A DNA stretch of 64,000 nt from an uncultured beta proteobacterium (GCA_903875135.1 CAIQUZ010000094.1:34249-98248), one strand, 5' to 3'. Numbered from the stretch's first letter, positions 53,332 through 64,000 are shown. The notes: a model not told the origin generated them from the sequence alone. Numbers and translations: made by a program.

Positions 53332-53529
53332 TCAACATTGCAGAGCTTCATTCGCTTTATATAGAACCTCTTTTTGCTCCATACCGACGAGACAATTCGA
53401 AGAATCTATAACCCTTGACTTAAGGTAAAGGTAATCGAAACGAACCACTCCATCAATGTCCCGCTTTACGCGGGACATGATTTGAATATAGCTAGCCTGG
53501 GTCAGATTTACTAGGGCATTAGGCGGCAC
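53332..53529 (-). CDS. Possible small protein downstream of sodC
   Basis: The 65-residue ORF starts four bases after the sodC stop (MPPNALVNLTQASYIQIMSRVKRDIDGVVRFDYLYLKSRVIDSSNCLVGMEQKEVL). Its composition looks coding and its position suits an operon with sodC, but I recognise no domain and a strong hairpin lies inside it (next entry). Confidence 0.4.
   Translation of the reverse strand: MPPNALVNLTQASYIQIMSRVKRDIDGVVRFDYLYLKSRVIDSSNCLVGMEQKEVLYKANEALQC
53456..53478. repeat. Strong 9-base-pair hairpin inside the small ORF
   Basis: ATGTCCCGC, a five-base loop and GCGGGACAT make a perfect inverted repeat. In the leftward direction it could act as a stem terminator or processing site downstream of sodC. 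It lacks a T run. Confidence 0.5.
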
Positions 53530-54945: not shown

Positions 54946-55842
54946 CTATCTCCAGTCCTTTGCCTGTTCTGATAAATGCTTTTTGAATATTGTAGCTATT
55001 GGTGATAGCCGTTTACCTTTGGGACTAACAATGTGCCAACTAGAGTTAATTGGAAATTCTTTACACTTCAGAATCGCCACATCATCTTGAGCAGAATGAT
55101 CAGCAAGAGAATATTTTGAGAGTACTGCCAAACCAAGCCCTCCAATAACGGCTTGCTTGATTGCTTCGTTACTCCCTAATTCTAAGCGCACATCTGCTGT
55201 GAACTTTAATTTCTTAAAGTGGGCTTCTGTTGTCATTCTTGTCCCGGAGCCCTTTTCTCTGAAGATAAACTTTTCACTCCTGAGAGAACTGATGTCAATA
55301 TGACTTTTACTCGCAAACGGATGATTCTTTGGAGCCACTAACATTAATGGATTTGGCATAAAAATCTCATCATCAATTTCAATGTGTAATGGTGACTGAG
55401 ACATGATGTACAAATCATCAAGATTTTCTTCAAGTCGCTTCACCACCCCATCACGATTGAGCACCTCTAAAGAAATCTCTATTTGAGGATACTTTACGCA
55501 AAAGATACCTAATATTCTTGGTATGAAATACTTTGCAGTACTAACAACTGCAAGCTTTAACTTACCTTGTGTTAATCCTTTTATTCCATGTACTTGTTGT
55601 TCAAAGGCCTCCCACTCAGCAGAGATAGCTCTAGCCGTTTTTGCCAACTCATGGCCCATATGTGTTAAATGTACTTTCCTAGCAACGACTTCATAGAGCG
55701 GCACCCCCACCGCATCTGTTATTTCTTTTAAGGCCATGGAAGCTGTCGGTTGGGTGACATGGACCATTCGCGCTGCTGCACTAACGCTGCCTGTTTCTGC
55801 AAGTGCCAAAAATAGTCGTATTTGTCTAAAGGTAATATTCAT
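54946..55842 (-). CDS. LysR-type regulator beside sbtA
   Basis: The 298 residues have the LysR HTH (FRQIRLFLALAETGSVSAAARMVHVTQPTASMALKEITDAVGVPLYEVV) and a substrate-binding domain. It is transcribed away from sbtA with an 83-base divergent gap, the usual layout for CbbR/CmpR-type control of carbon-uptake genes. The gap is AT-rich with several T-N11-A type sequences; the exact box is not certain. Confidence 0.92.
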   Translation of the reverse strand: MNITFRQIRLFLALAETGSVSAAARMVHVTQPTASMALKEITDAVGVPLYEVVARKVHLTHMGHELAKTARAISAEWEAFEQQVHGIKGLTQGKLKLAVVSTAKYFIPRILGIFCVKYPQIEISLEVLNRDGVVKRLEENLDDLYIMSQSPLHIEIDDEIFMPNPLMLVAPKNHPFASKSHIDISSLRSEKFIFREKGSGTRMTTEAHFKKLKFTADVRLELGSNEAIKQAVIGGLGLAVLSKYSLADHSAQDDVAILKCKEFPINSSWHIVSPKGKRLSPIATIFKKHLSEQAKDWR

Positions 55843-55925
55843 CAGTTTTTATCTATATATAACTATATTAATATCGATTTTACTTTATATATAAATATCC
55901 ATATGATCTCCTTAAAGGACCATAT

Positions 55926-56888
55926 ATGAATATCTTGCTAGACCCTACCATCCTCTTTTTTATCTTCGGCATCTTTGCGGGCTCAGTGAAATCTAATTTA
56001 GAAATTCCACAACCCATTTCTCGGTTTCTTTCGCTTTATTTATTGATGGCACTTGGACTAAAAGGAGGGTTTGCCTTAAACAAATCAGGCTTTACTCCTG
56101 AGATTGCAATTAGCCTTGGTTTGGCGATCTCTCTAGCCATTGGCATCCCTTTGCTTGGCTATCACCTCTTAAAGCTCAAATTAGACAAATTAGACGCCGC
56201 GGCAATTGCAGCTACTTATGGCTCTATTAGCGCTGTTACCTTTATTACAACAACACAAGTGTTAGATCAAGCGGGTATAAGTTATGGTGGTCATATGGCC
56301 GCCGCGATGGCTTTAATGGAATCGCCCGCCATCATCATCGCCATCATTCTCGCTAACAGAATTCGTCAAGATCAATCTGGTAATGATCGTGGACACGTTT
56401 CATTAGGCAAAATACTTCACGAGTCTTTTACCGATGGAGGACAACTTCTCTTATTAGGTTCTTTAGTTATAGGTTTGATATCTGGGGATGCAGGTCAAAG
56501 AGTCATGGCACCTTTCTCCATTGATTTGTTTAAGGGCCTCTTAGCTTTCTTCCTGCTAGATATGGGATTGGTTGCTGCTAAGAGCATTGGGGGGCTAAAA
56601 GGTAAGCCCTCTATTTCCCTTGCTTACGCTTTCATTGCACCGCCGATTCATGCCATGATTGCCCTTGGCGCAAGTCATTTGTTTCATTTGCCGTTAGGAG
56701 ATACGATCTTATTAATGATTCTTGCTGCAAGTGCTTCTTATATTGCTGTACCCGCCGTGCTGCGGCATGCCATGCCGGAGGTTAATCCAGCTCTGTATAT
56801 GGGCATGTCATTAGGAGTGACTTTCCCCTTGAACATTATTTTAGGAATCCCAATCTATAGTTCGATTGTCAACTATTTTGCTTCTTAG
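55926..56888 (+). CDS. sbtA: Sodium-dependent bicarbonate transporter SbtA-type
   Basis: The 320 residues form about ten membrane segments matching SbtA: LDPTILFFIFGIFAGSVKSNLEIPQPISRFLSLYLLMALGLKGG, AAAIAATYGSISAVTFITTTQ and ASASYIAVPAVLRHAMPEVNPALYMGMSLGVTFPLNIILGIPIY. SbtA imports HCO3- with Na+ and is best known in cyanobacteria. No SbtB or RuBisCO gene is in the window. An AAAGGA ribosome site precedes the ATG. It probably supplies bicarbonate for anaplerotic carboxylation. Confidence 0.92.
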   Translation: MNILLDPTILFFIFGIFAGSVKSNLEIPQPISRFLSLYLLMALGLKGGFALNKSGFTPEIAISLGLAISLAIGIPLLGYHLLKLKLDKLDAAAIAATYGSISAVTFITTTQVLDQAGISYGGHMAAAMALMESPAIIIAIILANRIRQDQSGNDRGHVSLGKILHESFTDGGQLLLLGSLVIGLISGDAGQRVMAPFSIDLFKGLLAFFLLDMGLVAAKSIGGLKGKPSISLAYAFIAPPIHAMIALGASHLFHLPLGDTILLMILAASASYIAVPAVLRHAMPEVNPALYMGMSLGVTFPLNIILGIPIYSSIVNYFAS

Positions 56889-56961
56889 ATTTCATTTCGT
56901 AAAACTACAGAAGCATGCCCATTTTTGAACACCGCAGCCGTATCAACAAGAAGAGAGCTCT

Positions 56962-56995
56962 GGGTTCCTAGGGGCCGGATGCGAATCGACCCACC
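56962..56995 (-). other. Degenerate tRNA 3'-end-like sequence (weakest copy)
   Basis: Read leftward, GGTGGGTCGATTCG and, 8 bases on, GGCCCCTAGGAACC resemble the T-arm and acceptor end of a tRNA. It is weaker than the two copies at 57704 and 61094 and has no terminator-like hairpin after it. It may be chance. Confidence 0.25.
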
Positions 56996-57019: not shown

Positions 57020-57379
57020 TCACTCTGATACGAGTGGTTGACCATATTTATTTGACTCTTTTTTCCCCTCCGATGCATACCAAATGATGAGTAGAATAAT
57101 ACCAACGATAGTAAAAGCTATCAGCTGCCACCATCCACTTCTATCCGTATCGTGTAATCTCCTTGAACCTACTGCTAATTCTGGTACTAAAAATATAAGG
57201 GATACGATCAAATTAAGAACTGAGCCGGCAGTAGGATCGGCAATTCCTCCTACAATGCTTGCCCCCCAACCGACTAATACGACAAATAAATAAAACCACC
57301 AAAATTCACTTCTCGTTGCTCGCCCGTGAAAATTTGCATATTTTCCCATACAGGTTGAAATTGACTGAGTGAATCCCAT
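57020..57379 (-). CDS. DUF805 family membrane protein
   Basis: This 119-residue protein has the DUF805 layout: FSQSIS-like start, YANFHGRATRSEFWWFYLFVVLVGWG, LIVSLIFLVPELAVGSRRLHDTDRSGWWQLIAFTIVGIILLIIWYASEGKKESNKYG. The 'RLHDTDRSGWW' motif is diagnostic. It has four membrane segments; function unknown. Confidence 0.9.
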   Translation of the reverse strand: MGFTQSISTCMGKYANFHGRATRSEFWWFYLFVVLVGWGASIVGGIADPTAGSVLNLIVSLIFLVPELAVGSRRLHDTDRSGWWQLIAFTIVGIILLIIWYASEGKKESNKYGQPLVSE

Positions 57380-57673
57380 ACGACCCCCTATTAAATTAAG
57401 TGATGGTTATTATTCATGTGCTGCTTGTCAATGTTAAATGCAAATATAGTTGTAGATATTAGGTCTAATACCTAGATGGGTTTGGCTCAGTGTTGTTGTC
57501 GTGAGTATTTAAAGCAAGGCTTTTTTAATATTGGGGCATATTTGTTTTTAAAGACCGTCGAATAACCGTGTTCTTTCCTCATACTATTCATCGTGATAAC
57601 GGCAGATAATAATAACCAATTGCTATTTTTTTTCGTAAGCTCTCAATTAATGATATTTGCAGCATCAAAAGAA

Positions 57674-57694
57674 ATAGCCCAACAAGTGGGCTAT
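57674..57694 (-). terminator. Terminator-like hairpin after the leftward metal-block gene
   Basis: Read leftward, ATAGCCCA and TGGGCTAT form a perfect 8-base stem followed by TTTCTTTT. It lies beyond the tRNA-like remnant, just where a tRNA terminator would be. Confidence 0.7.
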
Positions 57695-57703
57695 CGTGAC
57701 TCT

Positions 57704-57726
57704 TCGTGGCCAGGAGTAGAAACGAC
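57704..57726 (-). pseudogene. Decayed tRNA 3' end (left border of the metal block)
   Basis: Read leftward, GTCGTTTCTACTCCTGGCCACGA resembles the end of a bacterial tRNA-Phe (T-loop-like TCGTTTC, acceptor CCTGGCCAC followed by a near CCA). The T-stem no longer pairs, so it is not a functional tRNA. It is in the same orientation as the copy at 61094. Confidence 0.4.
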
Positions 57727-57759
57727 TAAAGCCAAGGATGACTAATCCATATCAAATAC

Positions 57760-58290
57760 TTACTTCATATGATCCATATGTTCTGATGGCATGTCATGAT
57801 TCATTTCCATTGTGTGTGGCGCCTTATACCCCAAAATACTTGGATCAATCATTCCAGAAATCATTGCCACATGGCCAAATACCAAGAATAGGGCTACGCA
57901 TATCGCATGAATCTTTAACTTATGTTCATGTCCTAAGCGTTTATTTACCAAACCCAACTCTTGTAATGCGATCCAAACTAAAGGCAGTCCTGCAATCACA
58001 TAACTACCAACAGCAATGACATCAATTACTGTTCTCCACTCACCCGCTATGGTAATTGGAATAATGGCATTAGTAACTATGTAGTAAATGATGCCAATAA
58101 AGTAAACACCAACAGCAATCCCCGCAAAGCGATTGAGATAATAAACGGCTCCTTCAAACTTACGGGTAAACAGTAAATATAATTCGGTGATTGCCAAAGT
58201 CTCAGCCAACACAATCGGTATAGCCATAAAAATAATTAAATTCCAAGGCTGGTTAACCGCCAGCAATTCCATATAGTGAGTCATGTTCAT
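57760..58290 (-). CDS. Small multi-pass membrane protein with His/Met tail
   Basis: From the ATG at 58290 (GGAG upstream) the protein has 176 residues with about five membrane segments (LLAVNQPWNLIIFMAIPIVLAETLAITELYLLF...) and a tail rich in His and Met (APHTMEMNHDMPSEHMDHMK), typical of copper-handling proteins. I do not recognise the family. It is the last gene of the leftward metal block. Confidence 0.75.
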   Translation of the reverse strand: MNMTHYMELLAVNQPWNLIIFMAIPIVLAETLAITELYLLFTRKFEGAVYYLNRFAGIAVGVYFIGIIYYIVTNAIIPITIAGEWRTVIDVIAVGSYVIAGLPLVWIALQELGLVNKRLGHEHKLKIHAICVALFLVFGHVAMISGMIDPSILGYKAPHTMEMNHDMPSEHMDHMK

Positions 58291-58310
58291 TTGTTTCTCC
58301 AAAATATAAG

Positions 58311-58327
58311 TGTGACGAGATGTCACA
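58311..58327. repeat. Perfect inverted repeat between two metal-block genes
   Basis: TGTGAC and GTCACA flank a five-base centre (17 bases total). The arms resemble CRP/FNR half-sites but with an unusual spacing, so it may be an operator for the Crp/Fnr-type regulator nearby, or a secondary structure. Confidence 0.35.
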
Positions 58328-58357
58328 AATCAAACTAATTTGTATTACACAATTAAC

Positions 58358-58696
58358 TTAAGCTTTTGGAGGTTTATAGATAAGGTTCATCATTGGCTGT
58401 AAATCCAATGATGAATATTGTGAAATGAGAGTTCCTGTGAATTCTGCTGTTAGATTGATGACAAATGCTGAGGAAATAACTATACCTAAACAACACTGAT
58501 AACTACCGCCATGGCATTGCTGGTTGGTATGTGTATCTTGAGCATCGCTAACTACTTCATCACAGTGATGAGCTGTACTATCAATGGCTGTAATTTGATG
58601 CGGAGCTTGATGTGCCGATAAATCAAAAGGCATCACTGCTGCATGTATCAAACTGACAAATAGGCTTAAACCAATGGCGATACATATTCTTTTCAT
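58358..58696 (-). CDS. Small secreted Cys/His-rich peptide
   Basis: This 112-residue protein has a signal peptide (IAIGLSLFVSLIHA) and His/Cys-rich stretches (AHHCDEVVSDAQDTHTNQQCHGGSYQCCLGIV) like small periplasmic metal-binding proteins. Together with the membrane protein downstream it suggests metal (copper-type) sequestration. No family is recognised. Confidence 0.7.
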   Translation of the reverse strand: MKRICIAIGLSLFVSLIHAAVMPFDLSAHQAPHQITAIDSTAHHCDEVVSDAQDTHTNQQCHGGSYQCCLGIVISSAFVINLTAEFTGTLISQYSSLDLQPMMNLIYKPPKA

Positions 58697-58859
58697 AATT
58701 TAATTTTATACATAAACGATGGTTTTGTCTTTTAAAGAACACGGCTATATCTAGATACACCAGCCTTGGAATAGGGCGACTGAATTCTAGATGCACTATA
58801 TTCACTGAACAAAGAAAATGTAAAACCACCCGAAGGTGGCTGCTACACAATCAACTACT

Positions 58860-59204
58860 TTATCCACAACTTCTGCCAAACATCATCTCTGGACCATGTC
58901 CTGCAGGCAAAGTAATACCTTTTTCTTTGGCACGCTTTTCCATCTCAGTATGGTGGGTAGTCATGATTGCCTGACGCTCTTCTGGAGTATTAGCATCAAT
59001 CATCCTATCCATCATGGTGAGTCGCTCTGCTGGTGTCATTAAATCTCGCATGATCTTCATGTTCGAATTTTGTCCCATCATTTGAGCGTGACCTTGCATC
59101 CTGCCCATAGCATTCATAGGGCCTTGCTGAGCAATAGATGCTACTGTCAAACCAAGGCCTAATGCTGCGACAACACCTATGACGATTTTATTGACTGTTT
59201 TCAT
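58860..59204 (-). CDS. Met-rich Spy/CpxP-like periplasmic protein
   Basis: This 114-residue protein has a signal peptide (IVIGVVAALGLGLTVASIAQQ) and a helical, Met-rich mature part (MNAMGRMQGHAQMMGQNSNMKIMRDLMTPAERLTMMDRMIDANTPEERQAIM) with two LTxxQ-like segments (MTPAERL; TPEERQ). Spy/CpxP proteins are chaperones in envelope stress, and the Met content suggests copper binding. Confidence 0.8.
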   Translation of the reverse strand: MKTVNKIVIGVVAALGLGLTVASIAQQGPMNAMGRMQGHAQMMGQNSNMKIMRDLMTPAERLTMMDRMIDANTPEERQAIMTTHHTEMEKRAKEKGITLPAGHGPEMMFGRSCG

Positions 59205-59222
59205 TTTTTTTCTTTCATTAAG

Positions 59223-59501
59223 TTAGTTACAGCAACAACCTTTTCCATTTTTACAAGACTCGTTTTTCACTTTTGTCTTACTAGATCCCTCTACATTTAC
59301 TTTTGCGGGATACCCGTCTTCTTCTAATGCCGCAATGATGGCGGGAATACTTGGTGAACCATCCCCCTCAACTTTTACTAATCCTGATGTAAGGTCAACA
59401 TCAACCGAACTGACCCCCGCAGTTGATTGAATTGCTTTTTCAACATGCTTTACACAGGCACCACAAGTCATACCACTTACTATTAAATTGATTGTTGTCA
59501 T
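59223..59501 (-). CDS. CopZ-like copper chaperone with a Cys-rich tail
   Basis: The 92 residues have a heavy-metal-associated domain with GMTCGACVKHVEKAIQSTAGVSSVDVDLTSG and end in an unusual Lys/Cys tail (NESCKNGKGCCCN). CopZ proteins bind Cu(I) with CxxC. The tail may raise affinity or add a second site. It is the first gene of the leftward metal operon (with Spy-like, Cys/His peptide and membrane protein) and diverges from the Crp/Fnr regulator by 38 bases. Confidence 0.88.
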   Translation of the reverse strand: MTTINLIVSGMTCGACVKHVEKAIQSTAGVSSVDVDLTSGLVKVEGDGSPSIPAIIAALEEDGYPAKVNVEGSSKTKVKNESCKNGKGCCCN

Positions 59502-59555
59502 AAGAACTCTCCTTTATTGATAAGTTCATTATTGGACTAATGATGAAATCAGCGT

Positions 59556-59569
59556 ATGATTTAGATCAT
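59556..59569. promoter_or_regulatory. FNR-type box before the Crp/Fnr regulator
   Basis: ATGAT and ATCAT half-sites are separated by four bases, the spacing of FNR-family boxes (TTGAT-N4-ATCAA). It ends right before the ATG at 59570 and lies between divergent genes, so it can serve autoregulation and control of the copper operon. Confidence 0.4.
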
Positions 59570-60172
59570 ATGGAACTCTATATTCCGCAATTACTTAAAG
59601 ACCTTTTGCCTAATGAGCTTTTAGGTCAATGCCATGGGTATCATTTTGATAAAGGTGACTACCTTTTCCACCAAGGTAAAAAACCTGAGTTTATGTTTTT
59701 TGTGGTTTCAGGCGAGGCAGTTCTTACAAGAGCGAGTAGTCACGGAGAGCCCATCATATTACAGCGCTGTAAGAATGGTTTTGTGAGTGAAGCCAGTTTA
59801 CTAACAGATGTCTATCACTGTGATGCCATTGCCACTCAGAGTGGACAGGCAATAACTCTTCCTATTCATTCTTTAATAGATGCGCTAAAAGACAGCAAGT
59901 TCTCACTTAAATGGGTTCAATTACTCAGCAAAGAAATCATGCGACTCAGAACGCAATCGGAACGCTTAGGCCTTAAAGATATTCGTAGTAAGCTAATACA
60001 CCTCATCGAAACGGAAGGTAAGCAAGGTATCTTGATGCTCCAGTCCGATTACAAATCAATGGCTTCAGAGATTGGTGTTACACATGAGGCCTTATATAGG
60101 GCTATTACCACATTAGAAAAAGAAGGTCTATTAGAAAAACGTCCTGATTCTTTAAAATTACTAAAGAAATAA
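59570..60172 (+). CDS. Crp/Fnr-family transcriptional regulator
   Basis: From the ATG at 59570 the protein has 200 residues: a cyclic-nucleotide-like sensor domain (FHQGKKPEFMFFVVSGEAVLTRASSHGEPIILQRCKNGFVSEASLL) and a winged HTH (YKSMASEIGVTHEALYRAITTLEKEGLLEKR). It lacks the N-terminal Cys cluster of FNR and has no clear cAMP-binding arginine. The track start ten codons earlier would put the palindrome inside the gene. It probably controls the copper-type genes. Confidence 0.85.
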   Translation: MELYIPQLLKDLLPNELLGQCHGYHFDKGDYLFHQGKKPEFMFFVVSGEAVLTRASSHGEPIILQRCKNGFVSEASLLTDVYHCDAIATQSGQAITLPIHSLIDALKDSKFSLKWVQLLSKEIMRLRTQSERLGLKDIRSKLIHLIETEGKQGILMLQSDYKSMASEIGVTHEALYRAITTLEKEGLLEKRPDSLKLLKK

Positions 60173-60268
60173 AGATGATATGAATCAAGATATGTCCTCT
60201 TAAAGAACAACTTATTACACAGTAATTATGACTTGATTTGGTGAACAATGAATCATTTAATAAGTCTC

Positions 60269-60805
60269 TTAAACCGTCCAAATACCTTCTCGTTCAACAA
60301 ATCGCGTCACCTTACCTTCTTCTTTATCCTCTTTTTTAAGATCGCGTTCAGTGAATCGAAAAAGAAGTGCCGGTTCGCTAATACAACGGGTATCGTGAAT
60401 ATCTCCAGGTAAATAAACCATTGCTTGTCCTGGTTTCACTATCGTTGAATCTCTTTTTACAAGTTGAATCCTACCTTGTTGATCTTCAATCCGAGCATAG
60501 CTTCTCATTTCAATTTCGCCACTTAGTACTACATAAATTACCCATGATCTCCCATGGTCATGCGGGGGGCGATACAGTCCGATAGTTTCGGTATGTGCCA
60601 AAAGCACAAATCCGTAGACTGAGTCACGATACAATTCTTCATATGGCGATGCATTCTTATGCAAGGACCCTAGCCAAACTTCATCCGTTGACGCTCTAGC
60701 TAAAACCTCCAGGTGAGTTTTGCTTCTAGCCACCACCTCCGAAGAAAGAGGCCCCCACGAGGTTTGCATATCTTGAATAAAAGCGTCTAATGAATTGCCT
60801 ACCAT
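60269..60805 (-). CDS. Cupin/cysteine-dioxygenase-like protein
   Basis: This 178-residue protein has a cupin core: IGLYRPPHDHGRSWVIYVVLSGEIEMRSY (metal-binding His pair) and PGQAMVYLPGDIHDTRCISEPALLFRF. The pattern resembles cysteine-dioxygenase-type mononuclear-metal dioxygenases or regulatory cupins. It has no partner nearby and a function unknown. Confidence 0.75.
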   Translation of the reverse strand: MVGNSLDAFIQDMQTSWGPLSSEVVARSKTHLEVLARASTDEVWLGSLHKNASPYEELYRDSVYGFVLLAHTETIGLYRPPHDHGRSWVIYVVLSGEIEMRSYARIEDQQGRIQLVKRDSTIVKPGQAMVYLPGDIHDTRCISEPALLFRFTERDLKKEDKEEGKVTRFVEREGIWTV

Positions 60806-61059
60806 GATGTACTTTCTGAGAATAGTTATTCAGTATACATTTATAACTAAGATTTTTAACGATGGTATTATTTGCCTCAAAAAGGGTTTTCAACCATCCT
60901 AAGATAGACCACTTTCGCTTGTATTTCATAGGCCTGAGCCACCAGTCTTAACTTTTCGGATAGCTTTGAGTCTGTATTCTAAAAAGTCCTTTTAACGAAC
61001 ATTTCGTGAAAGCTCCAATCGAAGGAAATGGAACCGAATCCTACAAAGCCACTGTAGAA

Positions 61060-61084
61060 AATGCCCCGCACAAAGCAGGGCATT
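61060..61084 (-). terminator. Terminator-like hairpin next to the right tRNA remnant
   Basis: Read leftward, AATGCCC and GGGCATT pair around an 11-base loop and are followed by TTTTC. It sits just past the CCA end of the remnant, as a tRNA terminator would. Confidence 0.7.
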
Positions 61085-61093
61085 ATTTGGTTT

Positions 61094-61126
61094 TGGTGGA
61101 TCGCGACTGAATCGAACCACGGACTC
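61094..61126 (-). pseudogene. Decayed tRNA 3' end (right border of the metal block)
   Basis: Read leftward, CGTGGTTCGATTCAGTC is a T-arm with a perfect T-loop-type GGTTCGATTC, followed by GCGATCCACCA with an intact CCA end. The T-stem arms do not pair, so it is not functional. The remnant is in the same orientation as the copy at 57704 and has a hairpin terminator on the same side. Confidence 0.5.
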
Positions 61127-61229
61127 AAGAATATCAATAAAAATATTTATTGGGTAAGAATATTTATCTCTAATATTGGTTACGTTATCTGAACCTTTGA
61201 TTGTCTTACTTCCTCAATGTTTTTTACCA

Positions 61230-63812: not shown

Positions 63813-64000
63813 TTATAAAGATTCTTCGATCCAATAGCCAATTGCACCGATAAGACAACCTGTTATTGCAACGGTTGCTAGGATACGAATGCCCGAGGAA
63901 AATCCAATAGCGAATAAATCCAAAGAAAATACATCCAAAAGCCCCATTAAAATGATTGCGCAACTTGCTAAAACCAAAATAAGACCAAAAGTTATAAATA
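63813..64000 (-). CDS. Partial small membrane protein running off the window
   Basis: The frame is open from the window edge to a TAA at 63813: ...FITFGLILVLASCAIILMGLLDVFSLDLFAIGFSSGIRILATVAITGCLIGAIGYWIEESL. At least two membrane helices are visible. Its start lies outside the window or at the internal ATG near MGLLDVF. It is probably the first visible member of the trio of small membrane proteins. Confidence 0.55.
   Translation of the reverse strand, partial: FITFGLILVLASCAIILMGLLDVFSLDLFAIGFSSGIRILATVAITGCLIGAIGYWIEESL

Follow-up and report, generated by a model that had tools for sequence, protein, structure and literature searches.

The stretch of DNA considered here, referred to as the window, comprises 64,000 nucleotides (G000:C94:34249-98248). 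It comes from a 2.7-Mb draft genome whose 129 contigs amount to a completeness of 92.8%, and its right end coincides with the end of contig C94. Toward that end, a group of small genes lies among relics of tRNA 3' ends and their terminators, while ARAGORN finds no intact tRNA anywhere in the 64 kb. The parts of the region, read from right to left and with the assignments argued for below, are as follows.

61056-61135, minus strand: right cassette junction, with a decayed arm, the tRNA-Phe 3'-end core and a class R terminator (class-R model).
60882-60957, minus strand: arm relic of a second type of junction (tRNA-like, anticodon-loop), its core lost (alignment to an arm of G012).
60269-60805, minus strand: cupin gene, cargo of a separate cassette (weak cupin matches).
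59540-60172, plus strand: Crp/Fnr-type regulator, cargo of a copper-type cassette (cNMP_binding, E 3e-13).
59223-59501, minus strand: CopZ-like HMA protein, in the copper-type cassette with Crp and Spy (HMA, E 1e-17).
58860-59204, minus strand: Spy/CpxP-like small protein of the copper-type cassette (weak CpxP similarity, E 0.009; without a Pfam match).
58816-58839, minus strand: class-3 terminator relic, the junction between two cassettes (E 0.003; homology breaks at 58750-58822).
58358-58696, minus strand: Cys/His-rich protein, cargo of the DUF6803 cassette (beside DUF6803 in site-bounded units).
57760-58326, minus strand: DUF6803 membrane protein, sharing a cassette with the Cys/His-rich gene (DUF6803, E 2e-70).
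57663-57749, minus strand: left cassette junction, with an arm, a decayed core and a class L terminator (class-L model).
57020-57379, minus strand: DUF805 protein, probably a single-gene cassette (DUF805, E 4e-29; flanked by the left junction on one side and the doubtful third relic on the other).
56955-56995, minus strand: doubtful third junction relic.
54946-56888, no strand assigned: LysR and a Na/bicarbonate transporter (Sbt_1), cassette cargo (homologous cassette in G084).
53455-53523, minus strand: weak relic of a junction, next to sodC where the array ends on the far side (class models, E 0.004).

An earlier note on this DNA had proposed that two decayed tRNA 3' ends in the same orientation, each with its terminator, bracket the genes between 57.73 and 61.09 kb, and both ends prove to be real. 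The right remnant (minus strand, GAGTCCGTGGTTCGATTCAGTCGCGATCCACCA) aligns to the 3' end of the genome's own tRNA-Phe(GAA) with a score of 19, where shuffles reach 15 at most, whereas the left one, compared with the own tRNAs alone, does not rise above shuffles (p ~0.2), so that the evidence originally offered for the left copy was weak. Models built from the junctions of relatives recover both: the general junction model places the left one at 57689-57755 on the minus strand (E 1.7e-7) and gives the right one 15.8 bits (E 7e-4), while models of junction and terminator class together reach E 2.1e-17 on the left (class L, 57663-57749, minus strand) and E 6.4e-17 on the right (class R, 61056-61135, minus strand), against a best E of 0.15 in shuffled and reversed controls. 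A hairpin followed by a T-run stands behind each copy, as the note had described (GCCCACTTGTTGGGC on the left, GCCCTGCTTTGTGCGGGGC on the right), and the repeat finder reports no direct repeat between the two. These terminators belong to the cassettes described below, and not to a tRNA gene that decayed on the spot. A third copy, suspected near 56962, scores above expectation against the own tRNA-Phe (p 0.04) but is without a match to the class models, and stays unproven. Two other candidates were set aside: an Rfam scan of the region returned sub-threshold matches only, of which the best, to isrJ, covers the right junction at E 0.58 and is not credible, and an RNA fold as the basis of the junction finds little backing in a site that folds weakly, with 7 pairs and without covariation.

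A search of relatives with the region yielded many short matches to its two ends alone, clustered in several genomes. The junctions found there share one layout, in which an arm of about 24 nt (approximately AGGATNAGACATCCTCGGCCCTGG), kept across unrelated cargo and not part of the tRNA, is followed by a core (TCGATTCCGCCCCGGGCCACCAAG) that is the 3' end of tRNA-Phe(GAA), and then by one of several terminator hairpins. The site is matched in 181 of the 186 genomes of Polynucleobacter, with up to 25 matches per genome, the tRNA gene itself accounting for one; elsewhere in the family, almost all genomes show a single match, consistent with the tRNA gene. The sites are present on named Polynucleobacter contigs, which identifies the genus. 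Across 16 genomes, all sites within each genome lie on one strand, with a median spacing of 1058 bp, and downstream of tRNA-Phe wherever that gene was in the stretch read. The terminator class directly behind tRNA-Phe varies between genomes, in line with insertions that each supply a tRNA end and a terminator of their own.

The units between these sites behave as gene cassettes exchanged between species. Those shorter than 6 kb number 127, with a median of 1004 bp, and 76 of them hold a single ORF of at least 80 aa; the longest ORF runs in the sense of the tRNA in 93 of 124 cassettes (93 versus 31). The cargo is mixed, 89 units below 2.5 kb falling into 60 unrelated protein clusters, and the order is shuffled, since the neighbours of the 16 cassette families found more than once differ in nearly every genome. 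Between species, 38 homologous blocks have sites at both ends; the starts of homologous blocks pile up at core position 0 and their ends at +20 to +30, i.e., some 25 bases inside the core that follows, with a second peak of ends at +60. Altogether, 52 of 136 starts and 79 of 136 ends fall near a core, compared with 5% of array positions. Likewise, a match of 95% identity between G033 and G087 runs through 10 kb of flanking sequence and the tRNA-Phe gene and stops 25 bases into the core. Transfer between species has been recent, given that shared cassettes are far more alike than their genomes: 99.1% identity against a background of 79.3% for G011 and G084, 97.7% against 78.7% for G007 and G011, and 98.5% against 77.1% for G057 and G084.

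The explanation that accounts best for these observations, and that we hold to be likely, is that the region is what erosion has left of the distal portion of an array of gene cassettes that is attached to tRNA-Phe(GAA) and occurs throughout Polynucleobacter. In this reading, each cassette comprises a tRNA-Phe 3' end and a terminator of its own, together with one or a few genes and the conserved arm. A recombinase would join the core (TCGATTCCGCCCCGGGCCACCA) of a cassette circle to that of tRNA-Phe, and the tRNA would be rebuilt with the 3' end and terminator of the incoming cassette, its old end being displaced outward to become the junction before the next cassette; repeated insertion could then produce a one-strand array. 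The genomes directly show the array, its site, the changes of order, the breakpoints at the core and the recent transfer; the circular intermediate, the entry mainly at the tRNA and mobilisation in trans are inferred. One could go further and suppose a capture system of the genus' own, integron-like in character, in which tRNA-Phe serves as the fixed entry and standardised passive cassettes are traded between species by a dedicated recombinase acting in trans. This extension is tentative, its chances falling a little short of even.

Alternatively, the arrays might have been reshuffled by homologous recombination between repeats after uptake of foreign DNA, with no site-specific recombinase taking part. 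The junctions, including their terminators, offer 60-90 bp of homology for such exchanges, and none of the recombinase genes recurs in every array among the 18 array-bearing genomes. However, the breakpoints concentrate at the 24-bp core in spite of the second peak of ends, the arm is not part of the tRNA and is nonetheless conserved beside unrelated cargo, and all junctions keep one polarity, with an intact tRNA at the head of the array. Homologous recombination as the sole agent therefore appears unlikely.

Far less probable is the form in which the locus was originally interpreted, namely a single 3.4-kb island that entered a tRNA gene, lost its integrase and is flanked by a direct repeat of the tRNA 3' end. 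Two same-orientation copies with terminators do flank the block, but they carry different terminator classes (L versus R), and two further junction relics, absent from the earlier note, lie inside it, at 58816-58839 and at 60882-60957, the latter aligning locally and without gaps to arms in G012 with a score of 48 against a shuffle maximum of 16. Moreover, the parts of the block are separate cassettes in other genomes and never occur all together, none of the 186 genus genomes having it whole. Across these genomes, homology to the block breaks at 58750-58822 and 60172-60268 and leaves three pieces: 57755-58750 (Cys/His-rich and DUF6803 genes), 58822-60172 (Spy, CopZ and Crp) and 60268-60857 (cupin). 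In G039, G058, G094 and G098, a site stands on either side of the first pair; the second group forms one site-bounded cassette in G057 and G097, its Spy-like gene adjoining that for CopZ in 9 relatives; and the cupin piece occurs apart in G175, at 87% identity. The class models find no junction relic between Crp and cupin (60172-60268). The supposed metal module is thus at least three cassettes that occur separately elsewhere and not a single insertion. As for the DUF6803 gene, sites lie near it in 17 of 80 loci drawn from the genome_contigs collection; it is also present in many beta-proteobacteria outside arrays, the 63 loci without sites including several of Polynucleobacter.

Since the cargo pieces in the window are site-bounded cassettes in relatives, the array reaches at least from 54.9 to 61.1 kb. 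LysR and Sbt_1 share 84% and 89% protein identity with one site-bounded cassette of G084, and Sbt_1 lies between sites also in G003, G033 and G096. The array perhaps extends as far as sodC at 53.5 kb, a gene that adjoins the array in G012 and G094. What the window holds is an old, eroded, distal part of the array at a conserved locus, with its sites mutated and internal junctions lost. A classical tRNA island would be one block between identical flanking repeats, present or absent as a unit, and would carry an integrase; here, no such unit is seen, and the window stretch of C94 has no tyrosine recombinase match. The block is also not at a fixed position in all relatives, an arrangement that the earlier note had counted against integration. 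Overall, what that note observed is confirmed over a larger extent than it gave, including the footprints of tRNA-targeted integration in a single orientation, and its interpretation is supported in part, the idea of one integrated module having to be given up.

In the source genome, the own tRNA-Phe is found at the very end of another contig (C24, G000:C24:62462) behind ntrY-ntrX, which are likewise its neighbours in G002, and xerC lies on the far side of the array in the own and related genomes. This synteny suggests that C24, with the tRNA-Phe, joins C94, with the window. Both contigs, C24 at 62462 and the window at 64000, break where the tRNA-Phe array would be, and its repeats would cause such breaks. 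Other tRNA genes also stand at contig ends (Arg-acg on C33, Lys on C30).

The source genome has as its tyrosine recombinases XerC, XerD and the product of a gene beside tRNA-Leu. As the earlier note had surmised for the block, there is no integrase for tRNA-Phe among them in the draft, so the array would be passive in this genome, incomplete as the latter is. The third gene (G000:C119:16090-17298) adjoins tRNA-Leu(taa) and could mark a separate island. Among relatives, islands in or beside the tRNA-Phe arrays carry a pair of recombinases of 188-250 aa and 403-454 aa, together with a DUF6641-type protein. Such pairs are present in at least 8 of the 18 array-bearing genomes, while 7 of the 18 are without an extra tyrosine recombinase within about 25 kb, and recombinases reside in a minority of large units only. 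The pairs are the best candidate helpers for the cassettes, which tyrosine recombinases of islands using the same tRNA may mobilise in trans. In G002, G098, G011 and G084, the recombinase island is upstream of tRNA-Phe and holds a displaced tRNA 5' half at the far end, indicating entry at the anticodon loop. The cassette enzyme may therefore differ from that of the islands, whose crossover seems to fall in the anticodon loop, whereas cassettes share only the segment from T-loop to CCA.

Several further observations concern elements at the same tRNA. The islands at L192:9127-14560, L191:142-12786, L093/L094 from 13298 and L102:647-18482 leave the tRNA 5' half and promoter region at their far end, insertion bringing a new 5' half, and two of them have direct repeats of 42 and 65 bp. 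A 13-kb viral contig (L206:1-13065), with genes that look filamentous-phage-like by eye and a 335-aa recombinase-like gene, has terminal repeats of 51 bp equal to the 3' half of tRNA-Phe and is another element using this site. Viral contigs contain no exact match to the site of the cassette arm, and no free cassettes were found in viral contigs, phages or plasmids. The Polynucleobacter-1 RNA (RF01718, 83 bits) was considered as the repeat itself and rejected, as it occurs once (L087:8881-9020), within the recombinase island of 15 kb at tRNA-Phe in G058, and not at the sites; it may belong to that mobile island.

Among known systems, integrons share with the array its small head-to-tail cassettes in one orientation, mostly of one gene and with one site each, and their shuffled order. 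These likenesses could suggest a true integron with IntI acting on attC sites. Nevertheless, the sites are tRNA-Phe ends at tRNA-Phe, a tRNA gene heads the array, a terminator follows directly on the site in each cassette, and no integron integrase, at the head or elsewhere, exceeds the cut-off in 61 genus genomes (the control set yields none either), which renders that identity highly improbable. Chance resemblance or scattered tRNA pseudogenes, to which the left copy's failure against the own tRNAs might have lent some colour, can be dismissed in view of the class-model values (E 2e-17 and 6e-17, controls at 0.15 or above) and the arrays in relatives.

The array is a kind of additive tRNA island, a variant with gene-sized, standardised units that are shuffled in an integron-like manner. 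It occupies the same place in relatives with variable content, its flanks are kept on the ntrX and xerC sides, and the tRNA end is repeated at unit borders. The additive flexible island of 'Ca. Methylopumilus' is a variable array beside tRNA-Lys, the last 20 nt of which recur, with islands from 330 bp up and metal and stress cargo (PMC10872708). Unlike it, Polynucleobacter uses tRNA-Phe, a dedicated upstream arm, interchangeable terminators and regular units of about 1 kb, and its breakpoints are mapped to the core across the genus, whereas the sections consulted of that account leave units and mechanism unmapped (PMC10872708). The additive fGI1 of Alteromonas similarly has a conserved tRNA as the target of cassettes gained and lost between strains, but these are large clusters (czc, hydrogenase; PMC4119200), in contrast to the mostly single genes seen here. 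Tycheposons too exchange tRNA-anchored cargo by tyrosine recombinases; they are summarised as elements that carry cargo, measure 4-200 kb and possess a recombinase (cited in PMC10872708), whereas the present units have a median of 1 kb, are mostly single-ORF and lack one. Tandem-accretion tRNA islands have displaced tRNA 3' ends in one orientation as well, and such islands lie within the arrays of G058 and G094, yet most Polynucleobacter units are the size of a gene, remain passive and have an arm of a separate type. A literature search for Polynucleobacter together with tRNA-Phe, with partial coverage of the writing on genomic islands in the genus, found no paper.

Finally, freshwater Polynucleobacter have small genomes, yet their gene content differs, and an array shared by the whole genus, in which exchangeable cassettes, mostly of one gene, collect at a single tRNA, would be a main route for those differences. 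Such an array would show that integron-like trading of cassettes can arise from a tRNA attachment site. With a defined core of about 24 bp, cassettes nearly identical between species that differ by 20%, and the same islands offering candidate recombinases, it would also provide a test bed for this kind of gene exchange.
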